A stretch of DNA of 8,357 nt, from positions 1-8,357 of the forward strand of contig DAOWEW010000157.1 in the NCBI GenBank assembly GCA_030638305.1, given 5' to 3'. The first letter of the stretch is position 1. Every line of letters starts with the position of its first letter. Positions 1,020 through 8,357 of the stretch are shown here, in pieces. The translations under genes and the position numbers were made by a program. Below the pieces are notes generated by a model. It saw only the letters and a list, made by a program, of their open reading frames with translations. It had not been told where the DNA came from and made no database searches. The DNA is from Desulfobacteraceae bacterium (GTDB taxonomy: Bacteria; Desulfobacterota; Desulfobacteria; Desulfobacterales; ETH-SRB1).

Positions 1020-2561
1020 ATGAAGAAACTCCCTATTGGTATTCAGACATTCAAAAATATCATCAACGAAGGCTACTGCTACGTTGACAAGACTTTTTTT
1101 ATTCATGATCTTGTAGATAAAGGAAAATATTATTTTCTTTCCAGGCCCCGCAGGTTTGGCAAAAGCCTGTTTTTAAGCACGCTTAAAGCAGCTTTTTCCG
1201 GCGAAAAAGAATTATTTCAGGGGTATTTTCTGGAGCATAACTGGGATTGGAAACTCAAATGGCCGGTGATTCATATCAGCTTTGGTGCTGGAGTAAGCAG
1301 AAGTGTTGAAGAAATCAGAATTACTTTTGATGAAATCCTGTATGACCATGCACGGGAAAATTCGATTGATTTTGTGAAGAAAAGTCTCAAAGGCAAATTC
1401 GCCGAACTGATCACCAGCCTTTACGAAAAATACGGCCGGCAGGTAGTAGTACTCATTGACGAATATGACAAGCCTATTCTTGATAATATTCACGAAACAG
1501 AAACTGCTGTTCTTATTCGTGAAGAACTCAAAAATCTTTATTCAGTCATCAAAGACGCTGATCCATACATCAAATTTGTATTTATCACCGGTGTATCCAA
1601 GTTCAGCAAGGTCTCTCTTTTCAGCGGGCTGAATAATTTGAAGGATATTACTTTGTCAAAGGAATATTCTGCTATTTGCGGATATACACAAGAAGAACTG
1701 GAAACAGTTTTTGCCGATCGTCTGCAAGGTATAAATTTGAATGAAGTCAAAAAATGGTACAATGGATATAACTGGTTGGGCGAGGAAGTTTATAATCCTT
1801 TTAATATTCTGTTGTATCTCGACAGCAAAGAATTTCGTAATTACTGGTTTGAAACAGCGACGCCTACTTTTTTGATCAAGCTGTTTGAGGATAAAAAATA
1901 TTTTATCCCCGGCATAGAAAATATCAAAGTTAGTGAAAGTATAATAGGCAGTTTTGATGTTGACAGACTGGAGATAGAAACCCTGCTTTTTCAAACAGGT
2001 TATCTGACCATTAAAGACGTTAGAAAAATTGTAACCATAACACAGTACCGCTTAGGATATCCGAATCTGGAGGTTAAGCAGAGCCTGATCGACTCTATTC
2101 TGTACTATCTGACTTCCAACACCGTGGAAAAAGAAAACAACAAGTTTGCCATTTTTGAGGCCCTGACAGCCAACGATATGAACAAACTTGAAAAGACCAT
2201 TCATGCCTTTTTCGCATCTATTCCCAACGAGTGGTACCGCAAAAACCGGATAGCAAATTATGAAGGCTACTACGCTTCCATTGTCTATTGCTATTTTGCT
2301 TCGCTTGGATTGGATGTTATCCCTGAAGATACTACAAACCATGGCCGGATAGATCTTACCGTGCATTTTGATGACCGAATCTATCTGATTGAATTCAAAG
2401 TAGTGGAGTTAACAGAGAAAGGCAGCGCCATGAAACAAATCAAGGCCAAAAAATATCACCGGAAATATTCAAACAAGACTGTTTATCTGATTGGGATTGA
2501 ATTCAGCAGGGATGATCGGAACATCGTCAATTTTGAATGGGAGCTGATAAAGCCTTCCTGA
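1020..2561 (+). CDS. AAA-ATPase-like protein with C-terminal PD-(D/E)XK nuclease domain (PF09820/DUF1703)
   Basis: The 513-residue protein matches the usual full length of this family. The N-terminus (PIGIQTF, then YVDKT at 21-25) is the family hallmark. A modified P-loop RPRRFGKS lies at residues 42-49 and the Walker B strand VVVLIDEYDKP has Asp147 and Glu148. The C-terminal domain keeps a PD-(D/E)XK signature: Asp445 in GRIDL, and Glu458 and Lys460 in IEFKV. It is predicted to be cytoplasmic, with no signal peptide or membrane segment. The biological role is not known; members often occur in many copies per genome in Bacteroidota, Desulfobacterota and Fusobacteria, and mobile-element or defence roles are only suspected. 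No clear Shine-Dalgarno precedes the ATG, but the start agrees with the family N-terminus. It converges with the biotin operon end, leaving 51 bp in which I see no terminator hairpin. Confidence 0.9.
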   Translation: MKKLPIGIQTFKNIINEGYCYVDKTFFIHDLVDKGKYYFLSRPRRFGKSLFLSTLKAAFSGEKELFQGYFLEHNWDWKLKWPVIHISFGAGVSRSVEEIRITFDEILYDHARENSIDFVKKSLKGKFAELITSLYEKYGRQVVVLIDEYDKPILDNIHETETAVLIREELKNLYSVIKDADPYIKFVFITGVSKFSKVSLFSGLNNLKDITLSKEYSAICGYTQEELETVFADRLQGINLNEVKKWYNGYNWLGEEVYNPFNILLYLDSKEFRNYWFETATPTFLIKLFEDKKYFIPGIENIKVSESIIGSFDVDRLEIETLLFQTGYLTIKDVRKIVTITQYRLGYPNLEVKQSLIDSILYYLTSNTVEKENNKFAIFEALTANDMNKLEKTIHAFFASIPNEWYRKNRIANYEGYYASIVYCYFASLGLDVIPEDTTNHGRIDLTVHFDDRIYLIEFKVVELTEKGSAMKQIKAKKYHRKYSNKTVYLIGIEFSRDDRNIVNFEWELIKPS

Positions 2562-2612: not shown

Positions 2613-3836
2613 CTACTTTACGTTCCTTATAATCAAAGCGCTGTTTTGCCCTCCAAAACCGAAATTTTCTAATAATATATTGCGTATCCGGCAGCTTTGT
2701 TCTTCACGGACAAAGTTAAGCCCCGCATGGCAAGGTTCATCAAGATTTCTTATCTTTGGGAGATAACTGTTTTGCATACAGGCAAGACATATTGCAAGCT
2801 CAACAGCCCCGCATGCCGCAAATATGTGCCCGATCCACGATTTAAGTGCAATGATAAAGGGAGATCTTTTACCGTAAACCCGATCAATTAAATCTGCTTC
2901 CATTGCATCATTTAACAGTGTCCCTGTTCCATGAGATGAAACAACGTCTATATCGGAAAAAACAAGCTCTGCTTCCTGCAAAGCCGCATTCACCGATTTT
3001 TCAGCCCATTTTCCATCTGGCCGGGGAGCGGTCATGGAATATCCATCAATGGAAGCGCCATAACCGCAAATTTCGCCATAGATCGCTGCACCGCGGCTTT
3101 TAGCATGCCGGAACTCCTCAAGCAAAAAAAAAGCGCTGCCTTCGCCAGGTACAAATCCTTGTCTGTTTTTATCAAAAGGACGGCTTGCTCTCTCAGGTTC
3201 ACCCGTTCCGTCGCAAAGAGCATGAGCTTTTTTATAAGATAGAATACTGCTTTTGCTTAATCTTGAATCGCCTCCACCTGCAAATGCAAGATCAATGTAA
3301 CCATTTTTTATTTTGCGAAATGCTTCACCAATGGCCTGGAGTGAAGCGGAACATGCTGTTGTAATAGTCTGGTTTTCGCCGTGGATGCCTGCCAGTTTAG
3401 CAATGACTGAAGCCGCTGTATTTGGCAGGAATTTCAATATCCAGAGAGCCATCAGATCTTTTCTATCTATTTCCCCAGCTTTGACATCAGGAAATTCCCC
3501 TCCGATATTCAGATTGGGGCCTGCCCCAAGGAAAAGACCTGCTTTTGCCAATAATTGTTTGTCAAGCCCCGCTTTTTTCACGGCTTCTATGGCTGAAGCC
3601 ACACAGAATTGAGCTCCCCTGTTGAGATAGCGTTTATCTTTAAAACGACCTGCAAAATCTTTGATATTAAAGTCATTTATGGGGCTTACAATAACAGCTT
3701 CATTATCAAAAAAAAATCTTTTAAACGAAATATTTTCATCTTTCAAATTGTTAAGTATCTCCTCTAAGGTAAAACCCAGGGAGGAAATAACTCCAACAGA
3801 GGTAATGACGACTCTTCTGCGCACGTTATCCATCAT
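2613..3836 (-). CDS. FabF-like 3-oxoacyl-ACP synthase (ketosynthase) of the biotin operon
   Basis: This 407-residue condensing enzyme is the usual length for KAS I/II. The full catalytic set is present: Cys162 in TACSAS, His302 in SSHGTGT and His337 in KSWIGH with Lys332, close to E. coli FabF numbering (163, 303, 340). The glycine-rich gating loop near the C-terminus reads FGFGGQNSA (392-400), where FabF has a GFGGTN type loop; this hints at altered acyl selectivity. It should catalyse decarboxylative condensation of malonyl-ACP with an acyl-ACP in the cytoplasm. It is the last gene of the operon, 15 bases after the nitroreductase. Two adjacent ATGs (3836, 3833) are possible starts and neither has a strong Shine-Dalgarno. 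The context suggests chain extension toward pimeloyl-ACP rather than housekeeping fatty acid synthesis; that is inference. Function as a ketosynthase is nearly certain. Confidence 0.92.
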   Translation of the reverse strand: MMDNVRRRVVITSVGVISSLGFTLEEILNNLKDENISFKRFFFDNEAVIVSPINDFNIKDFAGRFKDKRYLNRGAQFCVASAIEAVKKAGLDKQLLAKAGLFLGAGPNLNIGGEFPDVKAGEIDRKDLMALWILKFLPNTAASVIAKLAGIHGENQTITTACSASLQAIGEAFRKIKNGYIDLAFAGGGDSRLSKSSILSYKKAHALCDGTGEPERASRPFDKNRQGFVPGEGSAFFLLEEFRHAKSRGAAIYGEICGYGASIDGYSMTAPRPDGKWAEKSVNAALQEAELVFSDIDVVSSHGTGTLLNDAMEADLIDRVYGKRSPFIIALKSWIGHIFAACGAVELAICLACMQNSYLPKIRNLDEPCHAGLNFVREEQSCRIRNILLENFGFGGQNSALIIRNVK

Positions 3837-3851
3837 ATTTTTTTGACAATC

Positions 3852-4502
3852 TCATATTTCACTGACAATTTCTGAAATGCTCTTTTTGGGTGGCATTTCC
3901 GGTTTTTCATCCGGAAATCCTGCTGTAATAAAGCATTTTATTCGAACATCAGTTATTCCAAGAATTTCTTCAACATTTGGAATAAAGACTATAGGTCCGG
4001 TAAGGATGCATGATCCAAGCCCCAATTCTTCTCCTTTAAGGATAAATCCTTTCAAAGCAAGCCCTACAGTAATGTCAAGGCTTGTTTCTTCTCTCTTGTT
4101 GTGCGTGAGTACTTCTTCATCAAACATTTTTTTTGAAAAACTCTTACAGGATATAATTGTACCAACAGCAAAAAGAAGAGGTGCGTTAAACATGAATTCA
4201 GAAAACCGGTAATAGGTATTTATCCAGTTTTTCAGTTTCTTTTTCTCCACCTTGGGCTCTACAGCTCTTAAAAATTTTTGCCTGCCCAAAGCCAGTGCCT
4301 GATAAAGATTTTCTCTTTTTTCGGCAGAGCTGATTCTGAAAAACCGGACAGGTTGACTGTTTGAAGGAGAAGGAGCCATCAGAGCGCATTGCAGCATAAT
4401 GTTTATCCATTCTTCCGGCAGCGTATCCGGTTTATATTTCCTTATGCTTCTTCTTTTGCTTATAAGCTCTTCGAGTAACGTTCTATCGGGTTTAGTCCAC
4501 AT
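3852..4502 (-). CDS. nitroreductase-family FMN oxidoreductase, candidate enoyl reductase of the cassette
   Basis: The 216-residue protein has the nitroreductase fold pattern. It shows the FMN-phosphate motif RRSIRKY (17-23), the flavin-contacting APSPSNSQP stretch (43-51), the central helix with DITVGLALKG, then GLGSC, and a closing AGFPDEKP segment. I place the start at the ATG at 4502, because GGAAAGG at 4510-4516 sits seven bases upstream. An upstream ATG at 4520 would add six residues but has no ribosome-binding site. The gene overlaps the ACP stop by 11 bases and is followed 15 bases later by the ketosynthase, so it is co-transcribed and probably translationally coupled. The family covers nitroreductases, dehydrogenases and ene-type reductions using FMN and NAD(P)H. 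In this operon KS, KR, DH and ACP are all present but no FabI/FabK/FabL, so an enoyl-thioester reductase role is a reasonable inference. The substrate cannot be read from sequence. Confidence 0.85.
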   Translation of the reverse strand: MWTKPDRTLLEELISKRRSIRKYKPDTLPEEWINIMLQCALMAPSPSNSQPVRFFRISSAEKRENLYQALALGRQKFLRAVEPKVEKKKLKNWINTYYRFSEFMFNAPLLFAVGTIISCKSFSKKMFDEEVLTHNKREETSLDITVGLALKGFILKGEELGLGSCILTGPIVFIPNVEEILGITDVRIKCFITAGFPDEKPEMPPKKSISEIVSEI

Positions 4503-4863
4503 TGCTCTGCCTTTCCACATAACTTATTAAATCTTTCACCTTAAGAGTCGGACCGTTTTCGATATCTGCCATTATCTCTTTCAGCCTTTCTTGCATCAGA
4601 AAGGGAAGTTTTTCAGCCAAATATTGCAATATATCATTATCCGGTTGTTCGGCTTCGGTTATATATTGTCTTAATTTTCTTAAAAATATTTCATCATCAT
4701 TTACATCTATTTTAAATCTTGAGTTCAATGCTACTGCAAGCTCCAGAAGATCAATGGATTCAGCGCCCAATTCTCTTATCACATAAGTTTCAGGGGAAAT
4801 ATTATGATTCTCAATATCAAGGATTTCTGCCAGGATTTCCGTAATTTCTTTTAAAATATTCAT
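4492..4863 (-). CDS. acyl carrier protein with a large insertion before the last helix
   Basis: The first 60 residues are a clear acyl carrier protein: an amphipathic helix I, then LGAESIDLLEL, where Ser36 is the phosphopantetheine attachment site (normally in a DSL motif, here ESI), then the helix III region NSRFKIDVNDDE. Normal ACPs are about 75-85 residues, with the closing helix about 28 residues after the serine. Here the closing-helix-like segment LKVKDLISYVE is at 107-117, about 72 residues after Ser36, and the protein is 123 residues long. The extra 45 or so residues (about 60-105) are predicted helical and charged. The ATG overlaps the SDR stop as ATGA (4860-4863), so translation is coupled. 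It probably carries the growing acyl chain for its neighbours. The carrier-protein call is firm; the partner set and the role of the insert are inference. Confidence 0.88.
   Translation of the reverse strand: MNILKEITEILAEILDIENHNISPETYVIRELGAESIDLLELAVALNSRFKIDVNDDEIFLRKLRQYITEAEQPDNDILQYLAEKLPFLMQERLKEIMADIENGPTLKVKDLISYVERQSNVD
4510..4516 (-). promoter_or_regulatory. ribosome-binding site that decides the nitroreductase start
   Basis: GGAAAGG on the minus strand lies inside the 3' end of the ACP gene, seven bases before the ATG at 4502. It favours that start over the upstream in-frame ATG at 4520, which has only AT-rich sequence ahead of it. Confidence 0.55.
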
Positions 4864-5603
4864 AAGGTTATTTGCCCGCCGTTCATTGAAATTTCAGTGG
4901 CATTAAATCCGGCAGCACTGTCGGAAAGATAAAAAAGAATTGTTTCTGCCACTTCTTTTTTTGTTAAAGCTCTTTTTATTGGTGTCTTATTAAAAACTTC
5001 ATGAGTGTGTGCCCGGATGAATTGCCTGCCACGGCCTGAATCAATATATCCGGGACGCAATGTAATGGTGGTAATGCCATGCCCGCCCAGTTCCAGGCCC
5101 AGATTTTTATAGATTGCTTCAGATGCAAGCTTTGCTGCTGCATAAAATCCCTGGCCGGGATTGGGTCTTGCTGTTGCTGCTGAAGAAATATAAATAAGAC
5201 GGCCTCTTTTGTTTTTCATCATTATCCTTGCAACTTTTTTTACGATTTCTGCTCGAAAGGAAACATTTTCAGCAAAATAACTGTAAATTCTGTCCACATC
5301 AGCAGAGGCAATAAGACTTTCAAAATTTCCATGTACAAAATCTATCATGTAATCAATGTGATCAATGTGATCACCTGTTTGGCAAAAAAAAGAATTTATT
5401 GAATCGCTATTGCCGAATTCAAGTAAAAAGACGCTGTATTCTTTTCTATAAGCCTTCAAGCTTTTTAATATATACTCCAGCCCTTTTTTGCTTCTGTACG
5501 TCAATATCGGAAACAGACCTGCTTTAATCATACACTGGGCAAGACTAATAGCGAGATCACAACTGCCACCCAGAATAAGGGCTTGATTGCCTGAAAATTT
5601 CAT
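4860..5603 (-). CDS. short-chain dehydrogenase/reductase, FabG-like 3-oxoacyl-ACP reductase
   Basis: With the ATG at 5603 the protein is 247 residues, the standard size for a classical SDR. A frame extending to 5666 exists, but it would add 21 residues that overlap the previous gene and lie ahead of the first Rossmann strand. The 5603 start overlaps the hot-dog gene stop as ATGA and has AGGA 11 bases upstream. The catalytic tetrad is visible: Asn113 (ENVS), Ser141 (after YIS), Tyr154 and Lys158 in YAAAK. The cofactor loop is degenerate: LGGSCDLA (11-18) in place of TGxxxGIG, and the usual NNAG is replaced by FVHG near residue 90. The C-terminal GFNATEISMNGG resembles FabG. It is expected to reduce 3-oxoacyl-ACP to 3-hydroxyacyl-ACP with NAD(P)H. 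Another SDR substrate is possible, but the operon favours the FabG role. Confidence 0.85.
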   Translation of the reverse strand: MKFSGNQALILGGSCDLAISLAQCMIKAGLFPILTYRSKKGLEYILKSLKAYRKEYSVFLLEFGNSDSINSFFCQTGDHIDHIDYMIDFVHGNFESLIASADVDRIYSYFAENVSFRAEIVKKVARIMMKNKRGRLIYISSAATARPNPGQGFYAAAKLASEAIYKNLGLELGGHGITTITLRPGYIDSGRGRQFIRAHTHEVFNKTPIKRALTKKEVAETILFYLSDSAAGFNATEISMNGGQITL

Positions 5604-5896
5604 TTTCTGATTATTCCTGTTACAATTGGTTTCAGCATGTCTGAACTGCTTTGAAAAAGCCTGCATTTCATGCAGTTATGATCAATTTCGATATTAAAAG
5701 GATATTCTCCCGGAGAAACAAATTCTCTAAACCTAAAATTCTCTATTATATATTGTACGTTATTAACCTTTTCTTCTTGCAATGCTTTCAGAAAAGCATG
5801 AATTATAAGACTCCCGGGAACAACAGGTTTGCCAGGGAAATGCTCCGCATAAATTCTGTCAGATGGATCAAAATAAAATGTGCCTTTAATATTCAT
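5600..5896 (-). CDS. short FabZ/FabA-like hot-dog protein, putative 3-hydroxyacyl-ACP dehydratase
   Basis: The 98-residue protein carries the dehydratase signature EHFPGKPVVPGSLIIHAF (residues 18-35). His19 corresponds to the catalytic histidine of FabZ. The residue 14 positions later, a catalytic Glu in FabZ or Asp in FabA, is His33 (codon CAT at 5798-5800). The protein is much shorter than FabZ (about 145 residues): it lacks the usual N-terminal arm and appears to end early in the hot-dog sheet. It starts 14 bases after the bioA stop and its own stop overlaps the SDR start. Position in the operon suggests the dehydration step on an acyl-ACP. With the acid residue replaced it could be a weak or altered dehydratase, or act as a binding or chain-length-sensing partner. 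Membership of the hot-dog family is clear; activity is uncertain. Confidence 0.8.
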   Translation of the reverse strand: MNIKGTFYFDPSDRIYAEHFPGKPVVPGSLIIHAFLKALQEEKVNNVQYIIENFRFREFVSPGEYPFNIEIDHNCMKCRLFQSSSDMLKPIVTGIIRK

Positions 5897-5910: not shown

Positions 5911-7296
5911 TCAGTGCCTTATATTAGATCTTTCAGTAACAGCCCGAATAGATTCATATGTTATGTCGCAAAGCCTGTCGAGTTCATCAATTGAAATGCT
6001 GAGAGGAGGCATAAGAACAATAACATCACCAAGAGGTCTTATTATAAGGCCGTGATTACGTGCTTCTTTTATTACCCTGTGTCCGATCCTTGCTCCTGAA
6101 GGAAAACACTCTTTTGTATCTTTATCAGCTATTAGCTCTATGCCAACCATAATCCCGCATTGACGAACATCTCCCACATTGTCTAAGGCTGTGAATGATT
6201 GTAGCCTTTGTTTGAAATGCTCAATTTTCGTCTGAAGTTTATCCAACATTTTTTCTTCTTCAAAAACTTCAAGATTTGCTATTGCTGCCGCCCAGGCCAA
6301 AGGATTTCCGGTATATGTGTGGCCATGAAAAAATGTTTTGAGCTCTTCATATTATCCCAAAAATCCTGTATAAATTTTTTCAGTTGTCAGAGTAGCTGCA
6401 AGCGGCAGATATCCTCCTGAAATGCCTTTGGCAAGGGTCATGATGTCCGGCGCGACATTTTCATGCTCACAGGCAAACATTTTTCCTGTCTTTCCGAATC
6501 CAACAGCAACCTCATCTGCTATCATAAATATGTTGTGCCTGTCGCAGAGTTCTCTGACTTTTTTCAAATAGCCTGGAGGTTGCAGCAGCATACCCGATGC
6601 TCCCTGGACCAGAGGCTCAATTACCATTGCCGTTACTTCATGTGCATGGGCATTCATAATTTCTTCCAACCTGCTTAAGCATTCAAGGCTGCACCCTGGC
6701 CGGGATTTGCCGAATGCACACCGGTAACAATAGGGAGACTCGGCTTTTATTGATTCAAAGAGAAGATGTTTATACACTGAATGAAACAGATCAATGCCTC
6801 CAATGCTCACAGAACCAATGGTATCCCCATGATAAGAGTTGTGCAGGGATATGAATTTTTTCTTTTTTGGATTTCCATCCCGAGCCTGTTGCTGATATTG
6901 AAAGGCTATCTTAAGTGCTATTTCAACAGCAGTTGAACCACTATCTGAGTAAAATACTCTTGTTAAACCTTTGGGCGCAATCCCGACAATTTTTTTTGCA
7001 TATCTGATAGCAGGAACATTGGAAAGCCCCAGCAAGGTTGAATGCGCTATTTTGTCTAATTGCTCTTTAACGGCAACATCCAGCTCTTTTTTTCTGTGTC
7101 CATGAACATTCGTCCATAAAGAAGAAACCCCATCAATATATTCATTTCCATGGATATCAGTTAAGATACATCCGGATCCTTTTTCCATTATAATGGATTC
7201 TTCTTTTACATAATCCTGCATCTGCGTGAACGGATGCCAGATATATTTCCCGTCATCAATTTCCAACTGCTTGTTCCGCTCTTCAATTATTTTCAA
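5911..7296 (-). pseudogene. bioA: adenosylmethionine-8-amino-7-oxononanoate aminotransferase, interrupted by an in-frame TAA
   Basis: BioA converts KAPA to DAPA using PLP and S-adenosylmethionine as amino donor. The frame has WHPFTQM near the start, [29 protein letters not shown] and the PLP lysine in LAKGISGG (codon 6427-6429). At 6352-6354 a TAA follows FLG, and the same frame then continues YEELKTFFHGHTYTGNPL and the rest of BioA to a stop at 5911, including RPLGDVIVLMPP. So this is a base substitution, not a frameshift; GAA, AAA or CAA to TAA would explain it. The shortened product keeps the lysine but loses the phosphate-binding HTYTGN and the substrate-binding C-terminal domain, so it should be inactive. 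The second part has no clear restart. The start is taken as TTG at 7296, with GGAG at 7303-7306; another TTG lies at 7308. A sequencing error remains possible. Confidence 0.88.
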
Positions 7297-7355: not shown

Positions 7356-7379
7356 GTAATACCTTAAAGTAATACCTTA
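7356..7379. repeat. 13-base tandem duplication at the bioB stop codon
   Basis: GTAATACCTTA occurs at 7356-7366 and again at 7369-7379, with a period of 13 bases. The second copy contains the bioB stop codon (TAA on the minus strand, 7377-7379); the first duplicates it 13 bases downstream. It lies in the only long gap of the operon. It is probably a replication-slippage product without function. Confidence 0.6.
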
Positions 7380-8357
7380 GCAAATATTCAGCCCCAGTTG
7401 TTTAATCATATCCATATCCATGGCTGTGCTTCTTCCCTTTGTAGTAAGATAATTGCCTATCATAATTCCGTTAGCACCAGCCATAAAAATCCATGACTGA
7501 AAATCACCAAGAGTTCGTTCCCTGCCGCCGCATATAGTTATGCTTTTGTCAGGATTTATAAATCTGAAAAGAGCTATACATTTGAGCGCTTCCATTGGTG
7601 GAAGCAAAGATCTGTTTTCCATTCTTGTGCCTGGGATTGGATTTAAAAAATTTATTGGTATTGAATCCACATCCAGTTCTTTAAGCGTAAAAGCCAGCTC
7701 CACACGCTGTGCCCATGTCTCGCCCAGTCCAAGAATTCCTCCGCTGCAAACCTTCAGTTCTGCCGATTTTGCTATTTTGATTGTCTGAATATCTTCATCA
7801 TACTCATGTGTAGTACATATCTGATCAAAATAACTTCTCGCTGTTTCCAGATTGTGATGATATGTGGTCACTCCTTTTTCTTTGAGCTTTATTGCCATGG
7901 TGTCAGTGAGCTGTCCCAATGATGCGCAAACTGAGAGATCAGTTTTCCTGTTTATTTCTTCCGCCGAATGTCCAACAGAATCAATCTCTATGCCGGAAAG
8001 CGAATGACCGCTTGTTACCATTGAATATTTTGTTGCGCCGGCTTCTTCCATTAGCAGGGAATAGTTTACCATTTTCTCTGTGTCTAATAATGGATAAGTT
8101 TCAATTCCGGTTTTATGAAAAGCCGACTGAGCACAAAAGGCACAGTCCTCTGAACAACGACCTGACCTGGCATTAATAATGGAACATGTGAACACATTAT
8201 TTTTTTTAAACCTGTTCCGGATCTTATTGGCGCACATTATCAAATCAAGTGTATTATTCCGGGCAAGAGCGAGCTCGCAGGCATCTTCACAAGAAATAGA
8301 GTAGCCCGGATATGTGATAATTTTTTCAGTTATGCTGATTAATGTTTTATCGAACAT
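7377..8357 (-). CDS. bioB: biotin synthase, radical SAM, anaerobe-type cysteine pattern
   Basis: BioB inserts sulphur into dethiobiotin, the last step of biotin synthesis, using radical SAM chemistry. The 326-residue protein has the SAM-cluster motif Cys68-x3-Cys72-x2-Cys75 (RCSEDCAFCAQ), YHHNLET at 166-172, KVCSGG with Cys204, GLGET, and GGRE with Arg279. Aligned by spacing to E. coli, Cys144 and Cys204 match Cys128 and Cys188, but the Cys97 position is Ser112 (KYSMVTSG; 37 residues after the last SAM-cluster cysteine in both). Extra cysteines stand at 58 (TCSII), ten residues before the SAM cluster, and at 276, just before GGRE. This suggests the auxiliary cluster is bound differently. The ATG is the last three bases of the window; its ribosome-binding site and promoter are outside, and a longer N-terminus cannot be excluded. 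It leads the visible operon, 80 bases ahead of the preferred bioA start. Confidence 0.95.
   Translation of the reverse strand: MFDKTLISITEKIITYPGYSISCEDACELALARNNTLDLIMCANKIRNRFKKNNVFTCSIINARSGRCSEDCAFCAQSAFHKTGIETYPLLDTEKMVNYSLLMEEAGATKYSMVTSGHSLSGIEIDSVGHSAEEINRKTDLSVCASLGQLTDTMAIKLKEKGVTTYHHNLETARSYFDQICTTHEYDEDIQTIKIAKSAELKVCSGGILGLGETWAQRVELAFTLKELDVDSIPINFLNPIPGTRMENRSLLPPMEALKCIALFRFINPDKSITICGGRERTLGDFQSWIFMAGANGIMIGNYLTTKGRSTAMDMDMIKQLGLNIC

Follow-up and report, generated by a model that had tools for sequence, protein, structure and literature searches.

Introduction

How Desulfovibrio-type anaerobes without BioC/BioH or BioW obtain pimeloyl-acyl carrier protein (pimeloyl-ACP) for biotin synthesis has been a question since 2004, when a dedicated fatty acid synthesis module was predicted in Desulfovibrio biotin operons (accessible portion of PMC545781). 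The accessible text of a 2023 transposon-fitness study in D. vulgaris (PMC10102598) reports ten genes important without biotin, nine of them in the cluster DVU2558:DVU2565, which includes two FabZ-like genes, a ketoreductase, an ACP, and a ketosynthase (KS); the one outside it, DVU1220, carries a nitroreductase annotation. The same text describes a nitroreductase-like gene within the clusters of Syntrophobacter fumaroxidans and Desulfobacter vibrioformis, also suggests malonyl-ACP as the starter, and states that the biochemistry of the module needs further study, so that the genetics left the chemistry to be addressed. Here we analyze a contig of 8357 bases from a Desulfobacteraceae bacterium (DAOWEW010000157.1; the window, meaning the whole stretch), on whose minus strand lie all the genes of a biotin-linked fatty acid synthase (FAS) module.

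Judged by its gene content, the window adds another example of the Desulfovibrio-type biotin FAS module already described, in its nitroreductase-containing form, and is not a new system: genes for an ACP, a KS, a short-chain dehydrogenase/reductase (SDR), and a FabZ-like protein are contiguous with biotin genes. Modules of this kind in sulfate reducers are thus already known from the portions of PMC545781 and PMC10102598 cited above, and the precedent that a sequence-only reading of this DNA had named for them is a published concept. What is added here is a second, so far unannotated hot-dog protein, HD2, as a conserved operon member in the relatives, with active-site residues complementary to those of the FabZ-like protein HD1, together with clade-specific arginines in the KS and SDR. 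We read the module, with a probability of about 0.75, as a dedicated type II FAS that makes pimeloyl-ACP from malonyl units, using an HD1:HD2 dehydratase and arginines that hold the carboxyl group.

A Probable Split Dehydratase

The window encodes HD1, in which His19 and His33 occupy the columns of the catalytic His and Glu of FabZ, a homodimer with both residues in one chain. In the relatives, the two hot-dog proteins are complementary: the HFP motif is present in 47 of 48 HD1 sequences and in 0 of 33 HD2 sequences, and the E..AQ motif in 0 of 48 and 31 of 33, respectively. Because HD1 keeps the His, mostly without the Glu, and HD2 keeps the Glu without the His loop, we infer, with strong comparative support, that the two probably form one heterodimeric dehydratase with one active site, made up of the HD1 His and the HD2 Glu. 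The FabZ controls were all 15 loci over the family cut-off, picked by a profile built from 12. When the fold of HD1 was compared by VIA-align, ApeI from the ApeI:P dehydratase heterocomplex (6qsr) ranked first. The five HD2 sequences tested had no Pfam match, nor did the precomputed column show one for the 120 homologues listed of 448; the one HD2 sequence run against NCBIfam had no match either, and by profile there was no credible solved-structure match. HD2 was classified via fold comparison and via FabZ-like proteins of other genomes. Those 120 listed homologues all have 136-194 residues and include no evident natural HD1-HD2 fusion, in a search whose candidates reached at most about 1.75 query lengths.

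HD2 follows the KS in 31 of the 32 loci in which the KS is complete and 350 bases or more lie past its end, at a distance of 92 bases or less in 30 and of 605 bases in L003; in the exception, L047, the genome carries HD2 on another contig. Strong HD1 matches occur in 47 of the 49 relatives' genomes (G005 has a fragment at a contig end and G032 a weak match only). At E <= 1e-3, HD2 is found in 45 of the 49, strongly in 43 and as contig-end fragments in two (G032, G038), and no match was seen in G006, G021, G031, and G044. Across 297 sampled genomes of the phylum, HD2 is rare: 15 match, four of them strongly (G009, G019, G048, G283). Seven weak matches were inspected: six look FabZ-like, and the seventh, at L087, resembles another half-site protein.

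Other hot-dog proteins in such genomes show a similar half-site pattern, one with the Glu but without the HFP His (L087, 866-1300) and one with the HFP His but without the Glu (L118, 1489-1860), and split FabZ-like pairs may be common. In the openly licensed literature we met no description of a biotin module with a split dehydratase, a body of text from which subscription papers are mostly missing and in which supplements fall outside the scope.

Ketosynthase and Ketoreductase Residues

The KS set comprises the window and 30 loci, that is, 31 of the 39 sequences found (L003, L013, L015, L018, L021, L031, L038, and L081 are left out). Positions 162, 302, 337, 332, and 394 are invariant in all 31, giving the Cys-His-His triad, the Lys, and the GFGG loop. 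Against the FabF equivalog TIGR03150, the window protein scores 303.6 bits (cut-off 493.75), and on sequence grounds it is FabF-like but not the housekeeping FabF. Its best matches are beta-ketoacyl-ACP synthase II models, and no beta-ketoacyl-ACP synthase III (KAS III) family, the type of BioZ, appears among the 25 NCBIfam matches shown of 28 or the three Pfam matches.

Compared with 22 over-cut-off FabF loci of the same genomes (one, L074, is a fragment, hence 21 at most columns), the module KS departs at five positions. Position 107 is Pro in 30 of 31 (Leu or Ile in 17 FabF); 132 is Trp in 30 of 31 (no FabF); 135 is Arg or Lys in 29 of 31 (two FabF); 192 is Arg in 30 of 31 (no FabF); and 201 is Tyr in all 31 (Phe in 20 FabF and Tyr in one). 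Counted from the catalytic Cys, these correspond to E. coli FabF 108, 133, 136, 193, and 202, of which we take 133 and 193 to be acyl-pocket positions. FabF I108 and F202 are described as gating residues of the acyl pocket in the accessible part of PMC7138838. Besides 135, further clade-specific basic KS positions are 32, 175, 202, 203, and 363. In the SDR, numbered from the ATG, Arg191 and Arg183 are each present in 48 of 48 sequences, where the FabG controls (13 of 15 over-cut-off matches, one per genome) have Met and Ala, respectively, in 13 of 13. KS Arg192 and SDR Arg191 are candidates for binding the free omega-carboxyl. In the ACP, a pattern recognizes an ESIDL-like motif in 42 of 43 sequences, the remaining one being that of L018.

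Gene Order and Linkage in Relatives

Relatives were sought in a single scan of genome contigs with an alignment of 30 SDR homologues; 61 stretches matched and 50 loci were confirmed, which represent 49 genomes, L048 and L049 being two contigs of one. Most are labeled as Deltaproteobacteria or Desulfobacterota lineages, with a Spirochaetales metagenome-assembled genome (MAG; L045) and a SAR324 MAG (L035) besides. By profile annotation, the fullest order in the relatives is bioB-bioA-HD1-SDR-ACP-NTR-KS-HD2-bioF-bioD, where NTR is a nitroreductase-family flavoprotein, and in some of them bioA or bioB lies elsewhere or is reversed. Conservation of gene order was a check proposed in the sequence-only reading: 30 of the 50 loci, all in other assemblies, have the five module genes in the same order within 9 kb, and the remaining 20 miss at least one, many at contig ends. 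Linkage to biotin genes, whose loss in relatives would have spoken against that reading, is mostly kept, with at least one of bioB, bioA, bioF, and bioD on 43 of 50 loci; it is not universal. A birA-like gene is present on 24 of 50. At L007, NCBIfam names bioA, bioD, bioF, and birA, the bioF model being the best match yet below its cut-off.

Several loci vary on this plan. L081, a Desulfovibrio-like locus found via HD2, reads HD1-SDR-ACP-KS-HD2-bioF without NTR, with bioA, bioD, and bioB on the opposite strand and a weak HD1 match of 26 bits. In L045, the module is in two blocks about 6 kb apart (HD1-SDR at 9708-10717 and ACP-NTR-KS-HD2-bioF at 16851-20541), and if the binning is right, this locus falls outside the groups named in the accessible text of PMC10102598. 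L035 has birA, HD1, SDR, and ACP, with NTR cut off after its start by the end of the contig. L020, L022, L040, and L042 carry module genes and HD2 but none of bioB, bioA, bioF, and bioD on the locus, and another contig of G042 holds matches to both HD1 and HD2, which may mark an additional module copy.

A complete BioC/BioH or BioW route elsewhere in the genome would have counted against the sequence-only reading; in the relatives, BioC is over its family cut-off in 0 of 49 genomes (best 95 against 185 bits), and a BioW search that recovered the positive controls Bacillus subtilis and Methanocaldococcus jannaschii gave no match at E <= 1e-3 in any of the 49. Weaker BioC matches occur in all 49 relatives and all 14 control genomes, one control being over the cut-off. 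These absences are indicative, as the search covered BioC and BioW, not BioH, BioI, or BioZ, in genomes whose completeness is not stated. Housekeeping enzymes are present apart from the module; in 20 relatives' genomes, FabF is over the cut-off in 18, FabZ in 15, and FabG in 13.

The Window Copy

The five genes that follow bioB and bioA belong to the families named in the sequence-only reading and are coupled as it described (Table 1), as open reading frames (ORFs), Pfam and NCBIfam matches, and spacing agree. HD1/SDR and SDR/ACP overlap by 4 bases each and ACP/NTR by 29; gaps of 14 bases (bioA-HD1) and 15 bases (NTR-KS) separate the others, so that from bioA to the KS no two genes are more than 15 bases apart. 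A longer alternative start of the SDR ORF (5666) falls within HD1. Six genes were compared, without bioA, with L001, the closest locus found; their ratios of nonsynonymous to synonymous substitution rates (dN/dS), 0.13-0.29, are as for purifying selection, and with the order shared by 30 of 50 loci they show that the arrangement is not a matter of chance. Because the last triplet of the contig is the ATG of bioB, no upstream region, BirA site, or other regulator site is visible, and an Rfam scan at gathering scores gave no RNA element in the window.

Table 1. Features of the window (NTR, nitroreductase-family flavoprotein; DAPA, 7,8-diaminopelargonic acid)
Feature	Coordinates	Strand	Support
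bioB, biotin synthase	7377..8357	-	TIGR00433, 400 bits (cut-off 225)
bioA, DAPA aminotransferase, 461 codons, in-frame stop 6352-6354	5911..7296	-	TIGR00508
HD1, 98-aa FabZ-like hot-dog protein, His19 (HFPG), His33 replacing FabZ Glu	5600..5896	-	PF07977, E 9e-7
SDR ketoreductase (FabG-like), 247 aa; clade-specific Arg37, Arg117, Arg183, Arg191	4860..5603	-	TIGR01830, 92 bits (below cut-off 298)
Dedicated ACP, 123 aa; phosphopantetheine Ser in LGAESIDL	4492..4863	-	PF00550
NTR, candidate enoyl-ACP reductase	3852..4520	-	PF00881
FabF-like KS, 407 aa; Cys162, His302, His337, Lys332; clade-specific Pro107, Trp132, Arg192, Tyr201	2613..3836	-	PF00109/PF02801
End of similarity to L001; no HD2, bioF, or bioD beyond	2613..2623	.	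DNA alignment and tblastn
Convergent AAA-ATPase/PDDEXK gene adjoining KS, outside the biotin module	1020..2561	+	PF09820, PF08011
Second ATPase gene (ATPase_2), cut by contig end	3..788	-	PF01637

Two features had escaped the sequence-only reading, namely the in-frame stop in bioA and the break of the operon at the end of the KS gene. At the stop column, 32 relatives have Glu (15), Lys (8), Arg (1), Ala (1), or a gap (7). A frameshift, suggested by the two ORFs of bioA, is ruled out by a gapless DNA alignment to the intact bioA of L001, which places an in-frame stop codon there. The DNA match to L001 stops at 2623, the KS end, where relatives carry HD2 and often bioF and bioD, and tblastn with the relatives' sequences found no copy of HD2, bioF, or bioD in the window. 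The best HD2 match (E 8e-4, 16 residues) was rejected: it sits in the KS end, the query ORF having been extended upstream into KS. The adjoining AAA-ATPase/PDDEXK gene may have entered where the operon breaks, and no convincing mobile-element repeats flank it. Its family has 25 matches in G004, seven in G003, six in G001, and none in G002, G007, or G009.

Proposed Mechanism

We lean toward seeing the module as a FAS rebuilt for unprotected dicarboxylic acids, in which an obligate HD1(His):HD2(Glu) dehydratase would be joined by arginines in the acyl sites of KS and SDR that hold the omega-carboxylate. BioF is the established step that takes a pimeloyl thioester. From this comparison, we can propose the following steps:

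(i) The starter would be an ACP-bound dicarboxylic acid, most likely malonyl-ACP, and two rounds of extension with malonyl units would lead to pimeloyl-ACP.

(ii) In each round, KS would condense and SDR would reduce the ketone, as expected of their families, with KS Arg192 and SDR Arg191 possibly holding the free omega-carboxyl. If the arginines do hold it, no methyl shielding by BioC is needed.

(iii) Dehydration would be carried out by the HD1:HD2 heterodimer at its single predicted active site.

(iv) The flavoprotein NTR, whose gene separates ACP from KS at 32 of the 36 loci, may reduce the enoyl group, a more tentative assignment than that of the dehydratase; a nitroreductase is listed as one option for this step in the accessible text of PMC10102598.

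(v) Pimeloyl-ACP would be handed to BioF without BioC/BioH methyl protection, bioF itself not being on this contig.

The private elongation cycle feeding biotin that the sequence-only reading proposed therefore agrees in its core with the accessible portions of PMC545781 and PMC10102598. Its five genes, however, are not a complete cycle, because HD1 lacks the FabZ Glu and HD2, its likely partner, is missing from the contig, and as a set for rescuing a pimelate-pathway mutant they would probably fail without HD2. The comparison names this likely missing partner along with the residues HD1 His19, HD2 Glu, KS Arg192, and SDR Arg191 as targets for mutation, so that both dehydration and omega-carboxyl handling can be tested directly.

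Alternative Readings

Several observations weigh against the module as we read it. Seven of the 50 loci (L005, L020, L022, L032, L035, L040, L042) have no bioB, bioA, bioF, or bioD. Two of these, L005 and L032, are short, and birA is present at L035; L020 and L040, however, extend 10 kb on each side. The cluster at L004 is without HD1, which lies on another contig of G004. The split of His and Glu is not absolute, because four of 47 HD1 sequences (L009, L043, L048, L081) keep a Glu at the FabZ position, and Arg192 is only one of several candidates, because further basic positions of the KS are clade-specific. The window copy itself has a stop in bioA and, on this contig, no HD2, bioF, or bioD, and the accessible portions of PMC545781 and PMC10102598 report no enzyme assay of the module. 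The fold of HD2, moreover, resembles thioesterases about as well as FabZ, which bears on the proposal that HD1 and HD2 are not one enzyme, an ordinary FabZ carrying out the dehydration while HD1 or HD2 serves as a thioesterase, an ACP-binding scaffold, or the like. We regard this as improbable given the complementary loss of residues and the ApeI match of HD1, to which the accessible text of PMC10102598 adds that both FabZ-like genes are important in D. vulgaris, polarity being possible. The enoyl step is less settled: the flavoprotein is missing between ACP and KS in four of 36 loci (L011, L018, L036, L049), as it is from L081, and in D. vulgaris, DVU1220 is unlinked and distant from the cluster-borne proteins, so a housekeeping reductase might do the work and leave the flavoprotein another task. 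Its usual place between ACP and KS, and the poor growth of DVU1220 mutants without biotin (both D. vulgaris points from the accessible text of PMC10102598), make that doubtful.

The starter could also be a longer diacid thioester, such as glutaryl from another pathway, needing a single round. Many relatives are labeled Syntrophaceae, Syntrophales, or Desulfobacterales, groups in which the breakdown of aromatics or amino acids could plausibly supply glutaryl-CoA, and there is a precedent in BioZ, reportedly a KAS III enzyme with a glutaryl starter and glutaryl-CoA as substrate. This is unlikely here, however, as a FabF-like KS with a Cys-His-His triad is of the type established to take ACP-bound primers, and a Pfam scan found no CoA-to-ACP transferase among the window's genes. 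A separate matter is whether the window copy is a decaying operon, truncated after the KS and with a nonsense codon in bioA, whose host relies on biotin uptake. The stop, the three genes missing from the contig, and a neighbor from a family that is multi-copy in three of six relatives searched lend this some weight, but the other six genes are open with low dN/dS, and single-codon stops and breaks can stem from sequencing or assembly error. Nor does distance alone mean loss, since HD2 is unlinked from KS in G047 and HD1 from the cluster in G004. We consider decay possible but not likely; for pimeloyl-ACP synthesis from malonyl units to work in this genome, HD2, bioF, and bioD would have to be encoded off this contig, and bioA would have to be intact or compensated for.

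Comparison with Known Systems

The closest described system is DVU2558-DVU2565 of D. vulgaris, which shares bioB, bioA, a FabZ-like protein, SDR, ACP, and a FabF-like KS with the window (accessible text of PMC10102598). In D. vulgaris, the cluster also holds a second FabZ-like gene, bioF, and bioD but not the nitroreductase DVU1220, whereas the window has its nitroreductase in the cluster and no second FabZ-like gene, bioF, or bioD. The clusters of S. fumaroxidans and D. vibrioformis, compared by their description in the same text, resemble the window in having a nitroreductase-like gene, and differ in that the window breaks off after KS. For the dehydratase, the nearest likeness is the aryl polyene enzyme ApeI:ApeP (6qsr; PMC8041823), described as a heterodimer with a single active site that replaces the homodimeric FabZ and, like the putative biotin pair, composed of a smaller and a larger hot-dog partner. 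It differs in its aryl polyene substrate, and a sequence search with the HD2 profile gave no ApeP match. The BioC/BioH route of E. coli also uses the chemistry of fatty acid synthesis to build pimeloyl-ACP out of malonyl units but relies on methyl ester protection and housekeeping enzymes. The BioZ route of alpha-proteobacteria, like the module, uses a dedicated ketosynthase; that enzyme is reported to be of the KAS III type (PMC7645780; PMC8024396), whereas the KS of the window is of the FabF type and comes with its own ACP and reductive enzymes.

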